A DNA stretch of 54,169 bases, from positions 1 through 54,169 of the forward strand of contig CAKZSO010000037.1 of the NCBI GenBank assembly GCA_937921255.1, in the 5' to 3' direction. Below are positions 46,480-53,820 of the stretch, one piece after another. The notes below the pieces were generated by a model. That model was not told the DNA's origin. It was given only the letters and a program-made list of their open reading frames with translations, and searched no databases. The position numbers and the translations under genes were made by a program. Source of the DNA: Candidatus Bipolaricaulota bacterium (GTDB taxonomy: Bacteria; Bipolaricaulota; Bipolaricaulia; Bipolaricaulales; Bipolaricaulaceae). Numbering within the stretch: position 1 is the stretch's first letter; every line of letters begins with the position of its first letter.

Positions 46480-47742
46480 CTACTCCTGGCGGCGGACAGT
46501 GAGGCGGGACCGCTCCTGCCCGACCACCCGAATCCGATCCCCGGCGCGCACGGGCTCCCCCTCCGCCCGAGCCCGCCAGTACTCACCCTTCACCAGGACC
46601 CACCCCTCGGGAGCGAGGTCGTCCTTGGCCATGCCCTCCAGCCCGACCATCGTCGTCAGAGGGCGGGGCCTCCTCCGTTGGGCGAGAAGTCCCTTCGAGG
46701 CGATGAATAGGAAAAGCAGGGTCAGCGTCCCCACCGTGGCGGCCACCGTGATCCACGACAGCCGGAGCGCTGTCCCCTCGAGCTCAAAGAGCGAAAACGA
46801 ACCGATCAGAAGGCTCACTACTCCCCCGGTGGTGAGGATCCCGTCCGTGGGGGTGAACACGTCGAGGACCATCAGGAGGACCCCGAACAGGATCAGCCCG
46901 ACCCCAACCAGACTGATAGGGAGGATCTGCAATCCGAGGAGGGCGAGGAGGAGCGAGATCCCCCCCCCCACCAGGCCGATCCCGATCCCCGGGGTGAAGA
47001 ACTCGTAGATGAGGCCGTAGATCCCGAGGAGGAGGAGGATGTAGACGAGGTTGGGGTCGGCAAGGTAGGAAAAGAGCCGCTCTCGGAGGGTCATCTCGAC
47101 CTCGCGCACCGGGAGCCCGGCCGTGCGGAGGACCCGGCCATCCCGGAGCCGGTAACCGTCGAGGGCAGAGAGGAGGGCGGGGAACGAGTCGGCAACGATC
47201 TCGATCACCCCGAGGTCGAGGGCTTCGGTGGCGGTCACGGTGGCTGATTCCCGCACGGCGCGCTCAGCCCAGTCGGCGTTCCTCCCCCGGAACTCGGCCA
47301 CGGACCGAATCCGGGACACGGCGTCGTTGACCGCCTTCTGAACGGTGGGGTCGCCCTCCTTCGCCGACTCCCCGCTGATCGCCACCGGATGGGCGGCCCC
47401 AGTGCTCGTCCCGCGGGCCATCGCCGCCACGTCGGCGGCGACGAGGATGAACGTCCCTGCCGACGCGGCCCGCGCCCCCGCCGGCCCGACCCAGACCACC
47501 ACCGGAACGGGCGAGGCGAGGATCGCCTCCACGATCTCCTTCATCGCCGTGTCGAGGCCGCCCGGGGTGTCGAGGACGAGGACAACAAGGGACGCGCCGG
47601 TTCGGTTCGCCTCCCCCAGCCCCCGCACGATGTAGCCGCTCGTGGCCGGGTTCACCGTCCCGTCGAGCGACAACCGCACCACCTCGCCCACCCCGGAGAG
47701 GGAGGCGATGAGCAGGGCCGCTACCACGATGAGCCGAGGCAT
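46480..47742 (-). CDS. NfeD-type membrane serine protease (ClpP class)
   Basis: The 420-residue protein has a signal peptide, a ClpP-like domain with LVLDTPGGLDTAMKEI and RAASAGTF (catalytic Ser94), and a likely partner Lys near 136. A block of about four membrane helices (225-365) and a C-terminal OB-type NfeD domain (LTTMVGLEGMAKDDLAPEG, WRARAEGEPVRAGDRIRVV) follow. These proteases cleave stomatin-type membrane proteins or clear membrane proteins; no stomatin gene is in the window. TACAAT 8 bases before the ATG and no ribosome site suggest a leaderless mRNA. Confidence 0.92.
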   Translation of the reverse strand: MPRLIVVAALLIASLSGVGEVVRLSLDGTVNPATSGYIVRGLGEANRTGASLVVLVLDTPGGLDTAMKEIVEAILASPVPVVVWVGPAGARAASAGTFILVAADVAAMARGTSTGAAHPVAISGESAKEGDPTVQKAVNDAVSRIRSVAEFRGRNADWAERAVRESATVTATEALDLGVIEIVADSFPALLSALDGYRLRDGRVLRTAGLPVREVEMTLRERLFSYLADPNLVYILLLLGIYGLIYEFFTPGIGIGLVGGGISLLLALLGLQILPISLVGVGLILFGVLLMVLDVFTPTDGILTTGGVVSLLIGSFSLFELEGTALRLSWITVAATVGTLTLLFLFIASKGLLAQRRRPRPLTTMVGLEGMAKDDLAPEGWVLVKGEYWRARAEGEPVRAGDRIRVVGQERSRLTVRRQE

Positions 47743-47750
47743 CGGAGTTG

Positions 47751-47756
47751 ATTGTA
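47751..47756 (-). promoter_or_regulatory. -10 box of the NfeD gene, leaderless
   Basis: TACAAT within CCAAGTCGCTACAAT (47765-47751), a 15-base string repeated exactly before the small gene at 53668. Eight bases separate it from the ATG at 47742. Confidence 0.55.
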
Positions 47757-47835
47757 GCGACTTGGAGCAGCGCACTGGAGATCGGTCCACCCCCGCTTGC
47801 CCCGGAGCGAGATCGGGAAAGCGGGGACCGTCCGC

Positions 47836-47841
47836 TATACT
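47836..47841 (+). promoter_or_regulatory. -10 box of the antiporter operon, leaderless
   Basis: TATACT ends 7 bases before the ATG at 47849, with no ribosome site. No good -35 match is seen. Confidence 0.5.
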
Positions 47842-47848
47842 CACACCG

Positions 47849-48328
47849 ATGAGGCGGTGGATCGGCGGGATCGCGGTCGGGGGGCTCCTGTGGGGGATGT
47901 GGGTCCTCCTCTGGCGGGGCGCGGCGTGGCCGATCCTGACGGTGGGGGCCGTCTTCCCCGTGGCCACCCTCGGCGCGGCGAAGGCGGGGCTGCTGCCGCT
48001 CGACTTCCCCCTCGCGGCGTGGTTCCGCCTCGACCTGTGGCTCGCGTTCGCGGGCGTGGTGAGCGCTCTCGTCGTCGCGGCAGTGGCCCGCACGGGGTGG
48101 GCGATCCTCACCGGCCGCACCCGGTCGGGGATCGTCGCGATCCCAATCCGCCCCCGGTCGGAGATGGGAAGGCTCCTCCTCCTGTGGGCGATCACCGTCA
48201 CCCCGGGGACGATCGCCCTGCTCGTCGAGGAGGACGCGGCGTACGTCCACTGCCTCCACCGGCCGCCGGGCCCGTCCCTCCCGGGAACGGGGCTCGTGGA
48301 GAACCTCCTCGTAAGGTTGTGGGGATGA
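47849..48328 (+). CDS. mrpE: Mrp/Mbh antiporter subunit E
   Basis: The 159-residue membrane protein starts MRRWIGGIAVGGLLWGMW and carries the MnhE/MrpE features: two N-terminal helices, the SGIVAIPIRPRSEMGRLLL stretch and the WAITVTPGTIALLV segment ending with a cytoplasmic VHCLHRP tail. It is the first gene of an eight-gene operon. In Mbh order this is MbhA, in Mrp it is MrpE. Its ATG lies 7 bases from a TATACT box, and the stop overlaps subunit F. Confidence 0.88.
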   Translation: MRRWIGGIAVGGLLWGMWVLLWRGAAWPILTVGAVFPVATLGAAKAGLLPLDFPLAAWFRLDLWLAFAGVVSALVVAAVARTGWAILTGRTRSGIVAIPIRPRSEMGRLLLLWAITVTPGTIALLVEEDAAYVHCLHRPPGPSLPGTGLVENLLVRLWG

Positions 48329-48576
48329 GAACCGCCATCTTGGCAGCTCTTCTGTTCACCGCGCTACCGCCGCTGGGGAGGCTGTGGGCCGGGCCAACCC
48401 TGTGGGACCGGCTGACCGGCGCGGCATCGCTTAACGTGCGGGTAACCCTGGCCCTGGCCGCGGAGGCGGCGTTTGCGGGGCACGGGATCCTCCTCGATGT
48501 GGCCTTGGCCTACGCGGTGCTCGGGTTCCTGGGGACGGTGCTCGTGGCCCGGTTCGGGGAACGGGGGCAACGGTGA
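48325..48576 (+). CDS. mrpF: Mrp/Mbh antiporter subunit F
   Basis: An 83-residue hydrophobic protein matching MnhF/MrpF: the family motif PTLWDRLTGAASLNVRV and a C-terminal helix (DVALAYAVLGFLGTVLVARF). ATG 48325 overlaps the subunit E stop. Equivalent to MbhB. Confidence 0.85.
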   Translation: MRTAILAALLFTALPPLGRLWAGPTLWDRLTGAASLNVRVTLALAAEAAFAGHGILLDVALAYAVLGFLGTVLVARFGERGQR

Positions 48577-48869
48577 TCGGAACGGCCTTCCTTGCCGCGG
48601 GACTGGCGTTGCTCCTCCTCGGGGGAGTTGGGCTCCTCCGTTTCCGCGGCCCCTATGAGCGGCTTCAAGCCTCAGGAGTCGGTGACATCGGGGGAGCGCT
48701 GCTGTTCCTAGTGGGGTTGATCCTGCGCCTCGGGTGGTCGGCCACGGGGGGGATTCTCGTCGCCCTGATCGTCTTCTTCCTCTTCACCGGGCCGCTCTCA
48801 ACCCACGCCATCGCCAAGGCCGCGTTCGTTCGGGGCGAGCGGCCCCGCGAGGAACGACCATGGCCGTGA
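48573..48869 (+). CDS. mrpG: Mrp/Mbh antiporter subunit G
   Basis: The 98-residue protein has the MnhG signature LRFRGPYERLQASGVGDIGG and three hydrophobic segments. GTG 48573 overlaps the subunit F stop (GTGA). Equivalent to MbhC. The tail GERPREERPWP overlaps the start of the next gene by 10 bases. Confidence 0.88.
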   Translation: MIGTAFLAAGLALLLLGGVGLLRFRGPYERLQASGVGDIGGALLFLVGLILRLGWSATGGILVALIVFFLFTGPLSTHAIAKAAFVRGERPREERPWP

Positions 48870-49672
48870 TCCTGCTCTCAGCCCTGACGTTGGCCCTGGC
48901 GGTGTTCGCCCTCACCCAGCGCCGCCTCCTGTGGGGGGTGATCGGGGTCGGAGCCCACTCGCTCGCCCTCGCTGGCGTGTACCTGTTCCTCGCCGCCCCC
49001 GACGTCGCCCTGACCCAGGCCGCAGTCGGGTTTGGCCTCGTGACCTTCATCTACCTCCTCGCGCTCCGGCGGACGGGGAAGCTGACCGTGGTTGCCGCCG
49101 AGACCCCGCCCCTCCTCCACCAGGATGGGGAGCACGTAGCAGGGTTGGAGTGGGAGATCCTGTCCCGGCTCGGCCGCCAGCTCCACCGAGATGTGGAGGT
49201 CCTGTGGGTGACGCGGGCGGAGATCCCCCGGCTCCTCCGCGCGGGCGAGGCCGACGTCGGCGCCGGAGGCTACCTACCCCGAACCGACGACGGGGTCGTC
49301 CTCTCCCGCCCCCTCATCCCGACCCGAATTGTGGCCGTCCGCTGTGGCCCTGGCCCCTGCGGGGCCGTGGCCGGGGACCGGTGCCAGGACTGCCTTCCCG
49401 CAAGCAGCGTGACGTACGAGGACCACCGCGAGCTCGCCTCCGCCCTCCGCTCCGGCGAGATCGGGGAGGCGGTGGCCGACCTCCTCCACGTGCGCCAGTG
49501 GGTGCTGTCGGGCGAGGTCCAGCCGAGCGAGACCAAGGACGGGGGGGAGGCCGCGTTCCGGTTCGCCGTGGCCCCAGGGGAAGAGGACGTGCGCCAGGCC
49601 CTCGACGCGCTCCTCGCCGAGCTGGAGAGGAGCGGGGAGCTCGCTCGCCTCATCGCGAGGTACATCGGATGA
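48860..49672 (+). CDS. MbhD/DUF4040 antiporter subunit fused to a solute-binding-like domain
   Basis: The ATG at 48860 follows GAGGAA. Residues 1-70 form three helices with the MbhD/DUF4040 motif APDVALTQAAVGFGLVTF. From about 90 the chain turns into a family 3 periplasmic binding-like domain: LEWEILSRLGRQL, IPRLLRAGEADVGAGG, VVLSRPLIPTRIVAVR, and the typical C-terminus LDALLAELERSGELARLIA. In its centre four cysteines lie at 162, 167, 175 and 178 (C-x4-C-x7-C-x2-C), like a metal or iron-sulfur knuckle. RRTGK after the third helix suggests, by the positive-inside rule, that the extra domain may be cytoplasmic. Ligand sensing or gating of the antiporter is a plausible role (inference). Confidence 0.8.
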   Translation: MAVILLSALTLALAVFALTQRRLLWGVIGVGAHSLALAGVYLFLAAPDVALTQAAVGFGLVTFIYLLALRRTGKLTVVAAETPPLLHQDGEHVAGLEWEILSRLGRQLHRDVEVLWVTRAEIPRLLRAGEADVGAGGYLPRTDDGVVLSRPLIPTRIVAVRCGPGPCGAVAGDRCQDCLPASSVTYEDHRELASALRSGEIGEAVADLLHVRQWVLSGEVQPSETKDGGEAAFRFAVAPGEEDVRQALDALLAELERSGELARLIARYIG

Positions 49673-50307
49673 GGGTCCTCACCGCGCTTTCCCTCCTCGC
49701 GCTCGCGGGCCTGCTCGCCCTGGGGGTGAGCGGGGTGTTCCCCCGCCCCGAGCTCCCGTCGGCGGATGAGGTAGCCGCGGAGTGGGGGGCGGAGAACGTG
49801 GTCGCGGCGATCATCCTCGGCGTTCGGCTGTGGGACACGCTGTTCGAGATTCTCGTCTACGCGATGACGATCGTCGGGGTGAAGCTGGGGTTGCGGCTGT
49901 TGCGCTGGGAACGCCCCCTCCCTCCGGTTGCGGAGACCCCGCTCCTGCGGCGGTCGGCGGACCTCCTCCTGGGGCCGGTCGTCGTGTTCGCCCTGTACGT
50001 CGCGGTGAGCGGGCACCTCGGCCCGGGCGGCGGGTTCCCGGCGGGGGCGATCCTCGGGACCGCCCTCCTCCTCCTCGCCCTGGCCAAGGGAGTGGAGCGG
50101 CTGAGCGCGGAGATCCACGAGCCGGCCTTGGAGTGGGCCGAGTACGGGGCGATCGTGGCGATCCTCGCCCTGGCCGGGGGGCTCCTCCTCCTGGGGCGCC
50201 GCGGGAGCGGGTACCTCGTCGCCGCGAACGTCCTCATCGCCCTCGAGGTGGCGATCGGGGCGTGGGTCGTCCTCCACCGGTTCGCGAGCTCGCGGGGGGA
50301 GGTGTAG
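49669..50307 (+). CDS. mrpB: Mrp/Mbh antiporter subunit B with MbhE domain
   Basis: The 212-residue protein joins an N-terminal MbhE-like part (GAENVVAAIILGVRLWDTLFEIL) with MnhB (VSGHLGPGGGFPAGAILGTALLLLALAKG). ATG 49669 overlaps the upstream stop. Equivalent to MbhE and MbhF fused. The MbhD and MbhE parts are what form the C-terminus of MrpA in aerobic bacteria, so the MrpA C-terminus is represented here by two separate genes. Confidence 0.88.
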   Translation: MRVLTALSLLALAGLLALGVSGVFPRPELPSADEVAAEWGAENVVAAIILGVRLWDTLFEILVYAMTIVGVKLGLRLLRWERPLPPVAETPLLRRSADLLLGPVVVFALYVAVSGHLGPGGGFPAGAILGTALLLLALAKGVERLSAEIHEPALEWAEYGAIVAILALAGGLLLLGRRGSGYLVAANVLIALEVAIGAWVVLHRFASSRGEV

Positions 50308-50667
50308 ATGGAGGGCCTGGCCGCGGTGGCGCTCGCGATCGCGTTGGTGGGGGTTGGCTTTTGGACCCTCATCGTGAGGCGGAACCTCATCTGGAAACTC
50401 CTCGGCCTGAACGTGGGGGCGAGCGGGGCGATCCTGTTCCTCGTCGCTCTCGCCCACCGCCCCGGTGCGCGACCGCCCATCGTCGGGCTCGGGCCAGGAC
50501 CGTCCGCCGACCCCCTACCCCATGCCCTGGTGCTCACCGCGATCGTGATCGACTTCGCCACGCTGGCGCTGGCGCTCGTGTACGTGATCTTCCTCACCGA
50601 GCACCGCCACACCCAGGACGTGGAGCGCCTGGAGCGGGACGAGGAGCGCGGGTGGCCGCAGCCCTGA
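50308..50667 (+). CDS. mrpC: Mrp/Mbh antiporter subunit C (NuoK-like)
   Basis: The 119-residue protein with three hydrophobic segments shows the NuoK-like features: RRNLIWKLLGLNVGASGAILFL and DPLPHALVLTAIVIDFAT. Its start follows the subunit B stop directly. Equivalent to MbhG. The C-terminus HTQDVERLERDEER is charged and overlaps the next start by 16 bases. Confidence 0.88.
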   Translation: MEGLAAVALAIALVGVGFWTLIVRRNLIWKLLGLNVGASGAILFLVALAHRPGARPPIVGLGPGPSADPLPHALVLTAIVIDFATLALALVYVIFLTEHRHTQDVERLERDEERGWPQP

Positions 50668-52106
50668 GCGGGGTCCTCCTCTACCTCGGCCTTGGCCTCC
50701 TCGGGTTCGTGGGGGCGCCGCGGGCCTTCTCCCTTGTGGCCCTGCTGGGAGGGGCGACCACGTTTGCGTTGTGGGCGCCCGGGTTCCCCGAGGTCCTCGT
50801 GGGAGGCCTTCCGTGGGGGATCGCCGTGGCCGGCGACACCTGGACGGTGGGCCTGTGGGCGCTCGGCCTGGTCCTCCACGCGACCCTCCTCGTCCACGCC
50901 TGGGCAAAGGACAGCGCGTTCCACCCCCTGACCACGGTCCTCATCGGAACGTGCCTGGCCGGCGCGCTATCTCGCGACCTGTTCAACCTGTACGTGCTCA
51001 TGGACCTGTCCTCGCTCATCGCCCTCGTCCTGATCGCCTCCGGCCGCCGGGTGCGGGCGGTGTGGGCGGGCCTCCAGTACCTCGTACTGACCGAGGTTGG
51101 GCTGACCCTGTACCTGTTCGGCCTCGGCCTCGTGTACGGGCGGCTGGGGACGCTCTCCGTCTCGGCGCTTGCGGAGCGGGGGCCGAACCTGTCCGATCCG
51201 GCCTTGGCGGTGGGGGTCGGCTTGCTGCTCGCCGGGACCGCGGTGAAGACCGGGGTGTTCCTCCTCGGCCTGTGGCTTCCCCAGGCCCATGGCCAGGCCC
51301 CAACCGAAGTGTCGGTTCTTCTGTCGGGGATCGTGGTCAAGATCGGGGTCGTCACGCTGGCCCGGCTGGCCGAGGCGTTCCCGGTGGGGACGGTGCTCCT
51401 CTTCCTCGGGGTTCTGACCGGGTTTGGGGGGCTCCTCTACGCGCTGTGGGAGAAGGACCTCAAGGTGTTCCTCGGGTTCCACACCGTGTCCCAGCTCGGG
51501 TACATGCTGATCGGCCTCGGCCTGGGGGCGGGGACCGGTGCTCTCCTGTACGCGGTGGCCCACGGCCTGTTCAAGGGGCTCCTCTTCCTCGCCGCCGGCG
51601 AGGCCGTCGAGCGGACCGGTCAGCGCCAGATCGCCTTCCTCACCGGTCGCCTCTCCCTCCCCCTGGCCGTGGGACTGGGGGTCGGGGCGTGCGCGATCGC
51701 CGGGTTGCCCCCGCTCGCGGGGTTCGCCGCGAAGGGGGTCCTCGCCCTAGGGGCGCCGGGGTGGGCCAAGGGGGCGTTCTTCGCCCTCGGCCTCGGCACC
51801 GCCGCGTCGTTTTCCAAGCTCGTTCCCCTGCTTCGACCGCGGGAGAGGGGCCCCGCGGGCGGCCTCCCCGTGCTCGCGGCGGCCGTGGTGGCCCTCGGGG
51901 TCGCGGGAACGGTCTTGGCCGGGGATCTCCTCGCCCCACGGGCGTGGGGGGAGGCGATCCTCGTCGTGGGCTTGGGGTACGGCCTGTACCACGGGTTGAG
52001 TCGGGTCCGTCCGGGGCTCCCCCGCTGGGGCTTCGACTGGAGCGTGGTGAGCCTGCTTGGGGCCTCGGTCGGGGTGGCGGGCCTGGTCGCCTTCGGTGGG
52101 CTGTAG
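50652..52106 (+). CDS. mrpD: Mrp/Mbh antiporter subunit D, first copy (NuoM-like)
   Basis: GTG 50652 behind GAGGAG; 484 residues with about 14 helices. Proton path residues of this family are present: Lys in AVKTGVFLLGLWLPQAHG (K199), Lys in VVKIGVVTL, and the late HGLFKGLLFLAAG lysine. The usual glutamate of helix 5 is replaced by Asp118 (LYVLMDLSSL). The broken-helix region SQLGYMLIGLGLG is typical. It should carry protons or cations across the membrane. Confidence 0.9.
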   Translation: MAAALSGVLLYLGLGLLGFVGAPRAFSLVALLGGATTFALWAPGFPEVLVGGLPWGIAVAGDTWTVGLWALGLVLHATLLVHAWAKDSAFHPLTTVLIGTCLAGALSRDLFNLYVLMDLSSLIALVLIASGRRVRAVWAGLQYLVLTEVGLTLYLFGLGLVYGRLGTLSVSALAERGPNLSDPALAVGVGLLLAGTAVKTGVFLLGLWLPQAHGQAPTEVSVLLSGIVVKIGVVTLARLAEAFPVGTVLLFLGVLTGFGGLLYALWEKDLKVFLGFHTVSQLGYMLIGLGLGAGTGALLYAVAHGLFKGLLFLAAGEAVERTGQRQIAFLTGRLSLPLAVGLGVGACAIAGLPPLAGFAAKGVLALGAPGWAKGAFFALGLGTAASFSKLVPLLRPRERGPAGGLPVLAAAVVALGVAGTVLAGDLLAPRAWGEAILVVGLGYGLYHGLSRVRPGLPRWGFDWSVVSLLGASVGVAGLVAFGGL

Positions 52107-52139: not shown

Positions 52140-53603
52140 GTGACGGCGGCGCTCGCCGGAGTCCTCGTCTACCTCGCCTGTGGGGTAGCGGGGATCCTCG
52201 GCGCGGGCCGGATCGCCGCCCTCCTGGCGATGATCGGAGCGTGGGTCTCTCTCCACTTTTGGGCACCGGGGTTCCCGGTCGAGGTGGTGGGGGGGGGCCC
52301 GTGGGGGATCCCCGTGGCGGGGGACACCCTCGCTCTCGCGTTCTGGGTGCTGGCCCCCCTCGTTCATGCTGTTGCCACATGGCACGAACGGCACCGACCC
52401 ACCACGTTCCACGGGCTGGTCACGCTTCTTGTCGGGACGTGTCTGGCTACCGTTCTGTCCCGGGACCTGTTCAACCTGTTCATCCTCCTCGACCTCGGTT
52501 CCCTCCTCTCCGTCGTCCTCATCGCCTACGACCGGAAGTCGCGGGCCGCGTGGGCCGCGCTCCGCTACCTCCTCCTCTCCACCCTGGGGATGCTCCTCTA
52601 CCTCCTCGGGGTGGGGCTCGTCTACGGGGAGCTCGGGACCCTGTCGCTTGTCCAGATCGCAGAGATGGGGCCGAGACTTTCCCATCCACCGCTCGCGGTG
52701 GGGGTGAGCCTTCTCGTGGCGGGCGCTGCCGTGAAGGCGGGGGTGTTCCTCCTCGGGCTGTGGCTCCCACCTGCCCACGGGCTCGCGCCAACCGGCGTTT
52801 CGGTGATTCTGTCCTCGGTGGTGGTGAAGATGGGCGTGGTCGCGCTGGCGCGGCTCTCGGAGGCGTTCCTGATTGGGCCAGCCCTCGTTGTCCTCGGCCT
52901 CCTCACCGGGGTCGGCGGGACCGTCTACGCCCTGTGGGAACGAGACCTGAAGGTGTTCCTCGCCTTCTCGACCGTCTCCCAGCTCGGGTACCTCCTCATC
53001 GGGTTCGGGGCTGGCGGTGCAGGGGCACTGGGGGCGACGCTGTTCCTCGTCGCGCACGGGCTGTACAAGGGGCTGCTCTTCCTATCTGCGGGAGCAGCGA
53101 TCGAGGAGCGGGGCGAACGGGCGTTCGACCGGCTCGCGGGAACCCTCCCGTGGGGTGTGGCGTTGGGGCTCGTGGTGGGGAGCTGGGCGATCGTGGGGCT
53201 CCCGCCGCTCGCGGGGTTCACCGCCAAGGGCGCCCTGTCGGCCGGCCTTCCTTCCTGGGCCAAGGCGCTGGCCGTGGCCCTCTCCCTGGGCACGGCCGCG
53301 GCGTTCTGGCGGGTCGTTCCTCTCCTCCGGTCCCGCGGCGCAAGACGGGGCGCCGAGGCGGGGGTGGTGGCCCTCGCGTTCGCCCTCGTCGCGTTCGGTG
53401 GGTGGGGGTTCGCCTTCGTCCCCGCCATGCGCAGCCCATGGGAGTGGGGGACGGTCGGCGGGACCGTCGCCCTCGGCTACGGGCTTCACCGCCTCTTCCA
53501 GAGGACGAGCCCGGCCCTGCCCGGGCTCACCCTGGGCCGCGGGATGATCGCCGTCCTCCTGGCCTCAGGGGCCCTCGCAGCGGGAATGCTCCTCCTCGGA
53601 TGA
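52140..53603 (+). CDS. Mrp/Mbh antiporter subunit D, second copy (NuoM-like)
   Basis: GTG 52140 after GGGAGG; 487 residues, clearly paralogous to the first copy and of the same length. Matching sites are Asp118 (LFILLDLGSL), Lys199 (AVKAGVFLLGLWLPPAHG), VVKMGVVAL and HGLYKGLLFLSAG. The two differ throughout, so the duplication is old. Two D-type subunits could add a second ion channel, replacing the missing MrpA N-terminal channel. A 10-codon open frame with its own stop, ATG 52111 to TGA 52143, overlaps its start. Confidence 0.9.
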   Translation: MTAALAGVLVYLACGVAGILGAGRIAALLAMIGAWVSLHFWAPGFPVEVVGGGPWGIPVAGDTLALAFWVLAPLVHAVATWHERHRPTTFHGLVTLLVGTCLATVLSRDLFNLFILLDLGSLLSVVLIAYDRKSRAAWAALRYLLLSTLGMLLYLLGVGLVYGELGTLSLVQIAEMGPRLSHPPLAVGVSLLVAGAAVKAGVFLLGLWLPPAHGLAPTGVSVILSSVVVKMGVVALARLSEAFLIGPALVVLGLLTGVGGTVYALWERDLKVFLAFSTVSQLGYLLIGFGAGGAGALGATLFLVAHGLYKGLLFLSAGAAIEERGERAFDRLAGTLPWGVALGLVVGSWAIVGLPPLAGFTAKGALSAGLPSWAKALAVALSLGTAAAFWRVVPLLRSRGARRGAEAGVVALAFALVAFGGWGFAFVPAMRSPWEWGTVGGTVALGYGLHRLFQRTSPALPGLTLGRGMIAVLLASGALAAGMLLLG

Positions 53604-53667: not shown

Positions 53668-53820
53668 GTGGCCGACAAGATCAAGGTCAAGGGAGAACTC
53701 GCGGGGATGTTCTGGTTCGCGGGGTGGCTGTTCACGCTGGCGTTCACGCAGCTTCTGTGGTGGCAGGCGATCCTCGCTCTGGTGATCTGGCCGTACTACC
53801 TGGGGGTCCGGCTGCGGTAA
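53668..53820 (+). CDS. 50-residue membrane protein
   Basis: GTG 53668 behind AAGGAGG. A short basic start (ADKIKVKGEL) precedes two hydrophobic stretches, WFAGWLFTLAFTQLLWW and ILALVIWPYYLGVRLR, likely a hairpin in the membrane. Tryptophan/aromatic-rich segments and short size recall small membrane regulators or subunits. It follows the antiporter operon but has its own promoter, so it may be an added subunit or a separate gene. No family recognised. Confidence 0.65.
   Translation: MADKIKVKGELAGMFWFAGWLFTLAFTQLLWWQAILALVIWPYYLGVRLR

Follow-up and report, generated by a model that had tools for sequence, protein, structure and literature searches.

A subunit gene of an Mrp-type antiporter operon in a Candidatus Bipolaricaulota genome encodes a fusion protein, in which the membrane subunit MbhD continues directly into a domain derived from the family 3 solute-binding proteins (SBP_bac_3). 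The fusion gene (P0001, 48860..49672, forward strand, as are all genes given below) encodes 270 residues and lies in a window of 54,169 nucleotides, the whole stretch of DNA analysed. The extra domain (residues 74-270, 49079..49669) is predicted to be two-lobed according to the Pfam, AlphaFold (AF2) and Foldseek analyses and cytoplasmic according to charge pattern and homology, and it might regulate the antiporter to which it is joined.

The fusion gene is a single uninterrupted frame from the ATG at 48860 to the TGA at 49670-49672. Both families anticipated by the earlier note, which had described MbhD as running into a binding-protein domain with no intervening stop, were matched above the Pfam cut-offs: MbhD (PF13244, DUF4040) at residues 9-73 (E 2.8e-16, 59.8 bits vs a cut-off of 27.2), and SBP_bac_3 (PF00497) at residues 78-270 (E 5.2e-8, 33.2 bits vs a cut-off of 26.4). 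When the binding-protein residues were scanned on their own from residue 78 onwards, Pfam returned nothing at E 1; the 33-bit match is thus sensitive to trimming at the first strand. The support for the domain from profile and fold is independent of that match. A scan of NCBIfam yielded no specific family for the fusion. The MbhD part comprises residues 1-73 (48860..49078) with membrane helices at residues 2-19, 23-43 and 47-72, as supported by Pfam, the AF2 model and the homologues 6u8y_D and 6cfw_D; it also contains the APDVA motif, with A46-A50 invariant in the alignment. Against four relatives of the same genus, the dN/dS was about 0.03-0.07 for the MbhD part and 0.18-0.28 for the binding-protein part, which indicates purifying selection on both halves, less strong on the latter. 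A frameshift or assembly error at about residue 75 had been considered in the earlier note; an artefact of this kind, joining two genes, was rejected because the join is conserved in two phyla. The identical join was found in more than 100 genomes, the gene is under purifying selection, and no evidence favouring such an artefact was found; the probability of this explanation is negligible.

The genes of the operon are tightly packed in the order MrpE, MrpF, MrpG, fusion gene, MbhE/MnhB, MrpC, MrpD and MrpD. Upstream of the fusion gene are MrpE/MnhE (47642..48328; Pfam MNHE, E 2.6e-15; an open frame whose true start is probably internal), MrpF (48325..48576; MrpF_PhaF, E 1.1e-11) and MrpG (48573..48869; PhaG_MnhG_YufB, E 1.5e-18). 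Downstream are the MbhE and MnhB subunit (49669..50307; MnhB, E 4.6e-15, with a weak MbhE match), which retains a WDTLFE motif taken as the D792/E796 region of MrpA, and then MrpC (50308..50667; Oxidored_q2) and two MrpD-like antiporter subunits (50664..52106 and 52140..53603; Proton_antipo_M, E 3.5e-44 and 7.6e-45). ATGA overlaps at 48325 (MrpE and MrpF) and 49669 (the fusion gene and MbhE/MnhB), together with the 10-base overlap of MrpG and the fusion gene at 48860, suggest coupled translation of the operon genes. Homologues of MrpB, C, D, E, F, G and MrpA-C are all present together, and their order is kept in the relatives. The large MrpA, with its NuoL-like part and MrpA-C in one chain, is absent from the operon by Pfam; in its place, the two D-like subunits are distinct proteins, as are MbhD and MbhE/MnhB, an arrangement like that of MBH-type modules. 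No hydrogenase or other redox gene adjoins the operon among the genes scanned to the contig end, and the operon is predicted to encode a stand-alone Mrp-type cation/proton antiporter.

After the second MrpD gene, a membrane-type frame of 50 residues was also observed at 53668-53820 (AGMFWFAGWLFTL...WPYYLGVRLR). About nine further loci of Bipolaricaulota have a copy with 81-95% identity, sometimes located on the opposite strand or elsewhere beside the operon; the frame encodes a small conserved protein.

The fusion is not confined to this genome. By profile search and our own count, matches spanning MbhD and the binding-protein domain were found in about 54 of 100 Bipolaricaulota genomes and in about 69 of 103 genomes of the Thermotogota, which was searched as the phylum of a Mesoaciditoga genome. 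Eighteen of the Thermotogota matches are full-length; the others mostly cover MbhD and the first half of the binding-protein part, in frames of mostly 214-353 residues. Both domains were confirmed by Pfam in several Thermotogota genomes, including G151. The fusion gene is absent from several genomes of the same genus (G004, G007 and G011), which counts against the regulatory reading given below. No relative was found in viral contigs, and a sample of 300 genomes from the clostridial phylum yielded no full-length fusion match but only five shorter tails. One Thermotogota copy (G102:C13:225045-225763) appeared as two overlapping matches to MbhD and the binding-protein domain with a TGA in the first, and is a broken or mis-sequenced copy.

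Many of the genomes in the survey also encode a further MbhD that lacks this domain. For example, the same-genus genome G009 has a second, redox-linked Mrp-like operon (L159, 6841-13803), in which MbhD lacks the domain and the neighbours are MrpF, MnhB, an antiporter subunit, Complex1_30kDa and NADHdh. In all cases examined, the MbhD that bears the binding-protein domain was the one from the stand-alone Mrp operon. The contig with the fusion gene belongs to a 1.29-Mb genome of 86% completeness, in which only the fused MbhD copy was seen. In a weak tree of the MbhD part (76 columns), the short and tailed forms were separated from the fused forms (96/98), except for the long branch L153; a single origin of the fusion is possible on this basis. 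The tailed forms are clostridial MbhD proteins (L136-L140 and L094) with a C-terminal tail of about 100 residues, weakly similar to lobe 1 of the binding-protein domain. The hhalign comparison of tail and lobe 1 gave a probability of 83.6% over 37 columns, mostly above shuffles; this is weak, and the tails might be a reduced form of the same domain. They share the position and the weak lobe 1 match with the fusion; however, they have no second lobe.

The structure of the fused chain was predicted by AF2 from an alignment of 26 fused proteins, with a mean pLDDT of 89.8 and values of mostly 90 or more in the binding-protein part. In the model, three membrane helices are followed by an amino-acid-binding-protein fold of two lobes, and helix 47-72 runs directly, without a linker, into the first strand (residues 74-79). 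The onset of the extra domain is thus at about residue 74 and not near residue 90, where the earlier note had placed it. Foldseek matched the model to binding proteins for glutamine and other amino acids (E to 2e-15, TM by target about 0.75), and the predicted fold is of the type II binding-protein class with two lobes. The model of a Thermotogota protein (L130) follows the same plan with a well-predicted lobe 1; whereas residues 166-184 in lobe 2 have a pLDDT below 50. In other Thermotogota proteins, for instance L146, hardly 13 residues are left between the ETK of the hinge strand and the DLLRY helix. Lobe 2 has therefore shrunk in part of the family, and since it is short or poorly predicted in Thermotogota, the clamshell is not conserved across the family.

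The earlier note had proposed that a knuckle of four cysteines (C162-x4-C167-x7-C175-x2-C178, 49343..49393) forms a metal or redox switch on the antiporter. The four residues are literally present; however, the pattern is not conserved. Cysteine occurs at these columns in 8, 3, 2 and 1 of 30 aligned relatives, the full set is found in this one protein and genome only, and the fused relatives of the same genus have 0-2 cysteines in the domain. A metal or redox switch was rejected because even members of the same genus do not share the cysteines, and the counts exclude a conserved metal or redox site. Control of the antiporter by such a knuckle is therefore very improbable, and the alignment suggests that the pattern is no more than drift.

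The location of the domain relative to the membrane was examined by loop charges and by homology. Over 26 sequences, the mean number of Lys and Arg per sequence is 2.65 for loop 1-2, 0.00 for loop 2-3 and 3.04 for the segment that follows the third helix (TMH3); the pattern is similar over both phyla and, by the positive-inside rule, would place the C-terminus in the cytoplasm. MrpA-C shares the NuoJ/ND6 fold (PMC7419157). In ND6, the matrix side is where TMH2 starts, where the upper part of TMH3 lies and where the loop joining TMH3 to TMH4 passes over TMH2 (PMC7846746). By homology, the end of MbhD coincides with the place of this loop. The charge pattern and the ND6 homology together make a cytoplasmic domain well supported, as the earlier note had suggested from the charged residues after the third helix. 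Solute-binding proteins are extracytosolic as a rule (PMC9602780), and the domain might by analogy lie outside the membrane and catch a solute as ordinary binding proteins do. However, the charges of loop 1-2 and after TMH3, the ND6 homology and the MbhE partner, whose N-terminus is expected on the same side, all point inward; moreover, the operon contains no uptake permease by Pfam. An external location is thus quite unlikely.

The putative ligand pocket of the domain was read by alignment to the ancestral binding protein AncQR at nine contact positions, named as in GlnBP. Of these nine canonical contacts, among them Thr70, Arg75 and Asp157, the Asp alone persists; other residues stand in place of the acid, the aromatic, the Thr and the Arg by which an amino acid is normally bound. 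The retained residue is Asp207 (49478..49480, at the position of GlnBP Asp157), where 21 of 26 Bipolaricaulota sequences have D and the remaining 5 have N, and where D occurs in 17 of 18 sequences over two phyla. Two arginines are further candidates for the pocket, namely Arg119 (49214..49216, the GlnBP Phe50 position; 25/26) and Arg174 in the lobe 2 ligand loop (49379..49381, the GlnBP Gly119 position; 19/26). Conservation in Bipolaricaulota is 96% for R119, 81% for D207 and 73% for R174, vs a domain mean of 64%. Over both phyla, few residues are conserved (E97, L126, T155, D207-L208 and R267). In Bipolaricaulota only, the putative pocket looks re-tuned for an anionic or mixed-charge ligand.

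The MbhD part also differs from its homologues at the cation site. TMH3 bears E69 in MbhD and E706 in MrpA, a residue that is essential in Mrp and adjoins the bound cations (PMC7419157). In alignment to 6cfw_D and the relatives, this Glu is not found in the fusion protein, where the position is Gln53 (49016..49018); residue 53 is Gln in all sampled fused members of the genus and Glu in most other relatives. The MrpC segment at 50521-50553 has His72 and Asp82 in all 18 Gln53 loci of the genus, which represent about nine genomes, most of them twice; whereas the 30 Glu53 loci of relatives have Gln72 and His82. In another Bipolaricaulota genome with Gln53 (L027 and L056), Asp35 replaces Asn35 of MrpC, which aligns with N34 of MbhG; the latter was proposed to help cation binding (PMC7419157). 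A transfer of the acid from MbhD to MrpC seems to have occurred on two or more occasions. In a few loci of the Thermotogota (L129, L133, L152 and L153), the Gln is present without the MrpC change, and therefore the carboxylate rule is not general.

On these grounds, we tentatively propose that the domain is a cytoplasmic regulatory domain derived from binding proteins, which acts on TMH3 and tunes antiport in Bipolaricaulota; this is the most likely of the readings considered, though somewhat short of probable. The domain would sit at the cytoplasmic end of TMH3, and its lobes might open and close around a small ionic ligand from the cytoplasm in the pocket of R119, R174 and D207 (in Bipolaricaulota). 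Since TMH3 is joined to the domain without a linker, lobe movement could turn or pull this helix, and ligand-driven turning would tune antiport to a metabolite. The geometry of the model suggests such coupling. In complex I, the matrix end of the homologous helix turns when a π-bulge forms, in the active/deactive change (PMC7846746). The stricter claim of a metabolite-gated Mrp antiporter, in which a cytoplasmic clamshell switches a complex I-like ion module by turning the cation-site helix, is rather unlikely. Ligand control is favoured by the two-lobed fold and the conserved, re-tuned pocket in Bipolaricaulota; whereas the lost amino-acid clamp and the shrunken lobe 2 of many Thermotogota argue against a ligand switch throughout the family. 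Where lobe 2 is reduced in Thermotogota proteins, all that is left to the domain may be a structural or partner-binding role.

Nearly as likely as a regulatory domain is a ligand-free one, i.e. a degenerate binding-protein domain that covers the small subunits on their cytoplasmic side, aids assembly or provides an acidic surface for gathering cations. The cytoplasmic face of Mrp over the small subunits is negative and was proposed to attract cations (PMC7419157), and the net charge of the domain is about -11 in Bipolaricaulota. The loss of the canonical contacts, the reduction of lobe 2 in Thermotogota and the scarcity of residues conserved over both phyla would also fit such a role. However, the Bipolaricaulota proteins keep the two-lobed fold and the charged residues at the pocket positions, and some members have a charge that is only slightly negative, or is positive.

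Comparison of the fusion with known systems showed several partial similarities. It resembles MbhD and the C-terminal part of MrpA (PF13244; 6cfw_D, 6u8y_D and TMH17-19 of 6z16_A) in the three helices, the APDVA motif and the operon neighbours; whereas it has about 195 extra C-terminal residues and, in this genus, Gln at the cation-site Glu. The family 3 binding proteins (PF00497; GlnBP, AncQR and LAO) are similar in fold, Pfam score and the Asp at the GlnBP Asp157 position; however, the fusion has no secretion signal, is anchored via an antiporter subunit, is probably cytoplasmic, and has lost the contact residues other than the Asp. The regulatory domain of MltF (5a5x and 4p0g), with a weak sequence match and a fold match, is likewise a binding-protein domain joined to another function; whereas MltF is periplasmic and carries a lytic transglycosylase. 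The glutamate-gated potassium channel GluR0 (1ii5 and 2pyy), a fold match to the Thermotogota model, has a binding-protein core on an ion-transporting membrane part; however, this core is extracellular and GluR0 is a channel, not an antiporter. Kef-type K+/H+ antiporters bear cytoplasmic ligand-binding KTN/RCK domains on a cation/proton antiporter; their fold and transporter family are both unrelated to those of the fusion. Perhaps the fusion works like GluR0 or the Kef KTN domains by analogy, while belonging to neither. Given these precedents, the term 'new control principle' in the earlier note goes too far as a general statement.

The fusion is undescribed in the open-access literature searched, which leaves out most subscription papers, and the literature on the Mrp of Thermotoga or Bipolaricaulota contained nothing on it; both domains are visible to Pfam, and therefore database annotations of the fusion must exist. 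Mrp antiporters are relatives of the membrane arm of respiratory complex I, and the way in which their own ion-path helices move is disputed. A hinge-bending domain naturally fused to the end of TMH3 would provide a handle on this helix, and a ligand could then be used to test gating by rotation. In addition, the fusion domain would be a rare cytoplasmic case in the otherwise extracytosolic binding-protein family.
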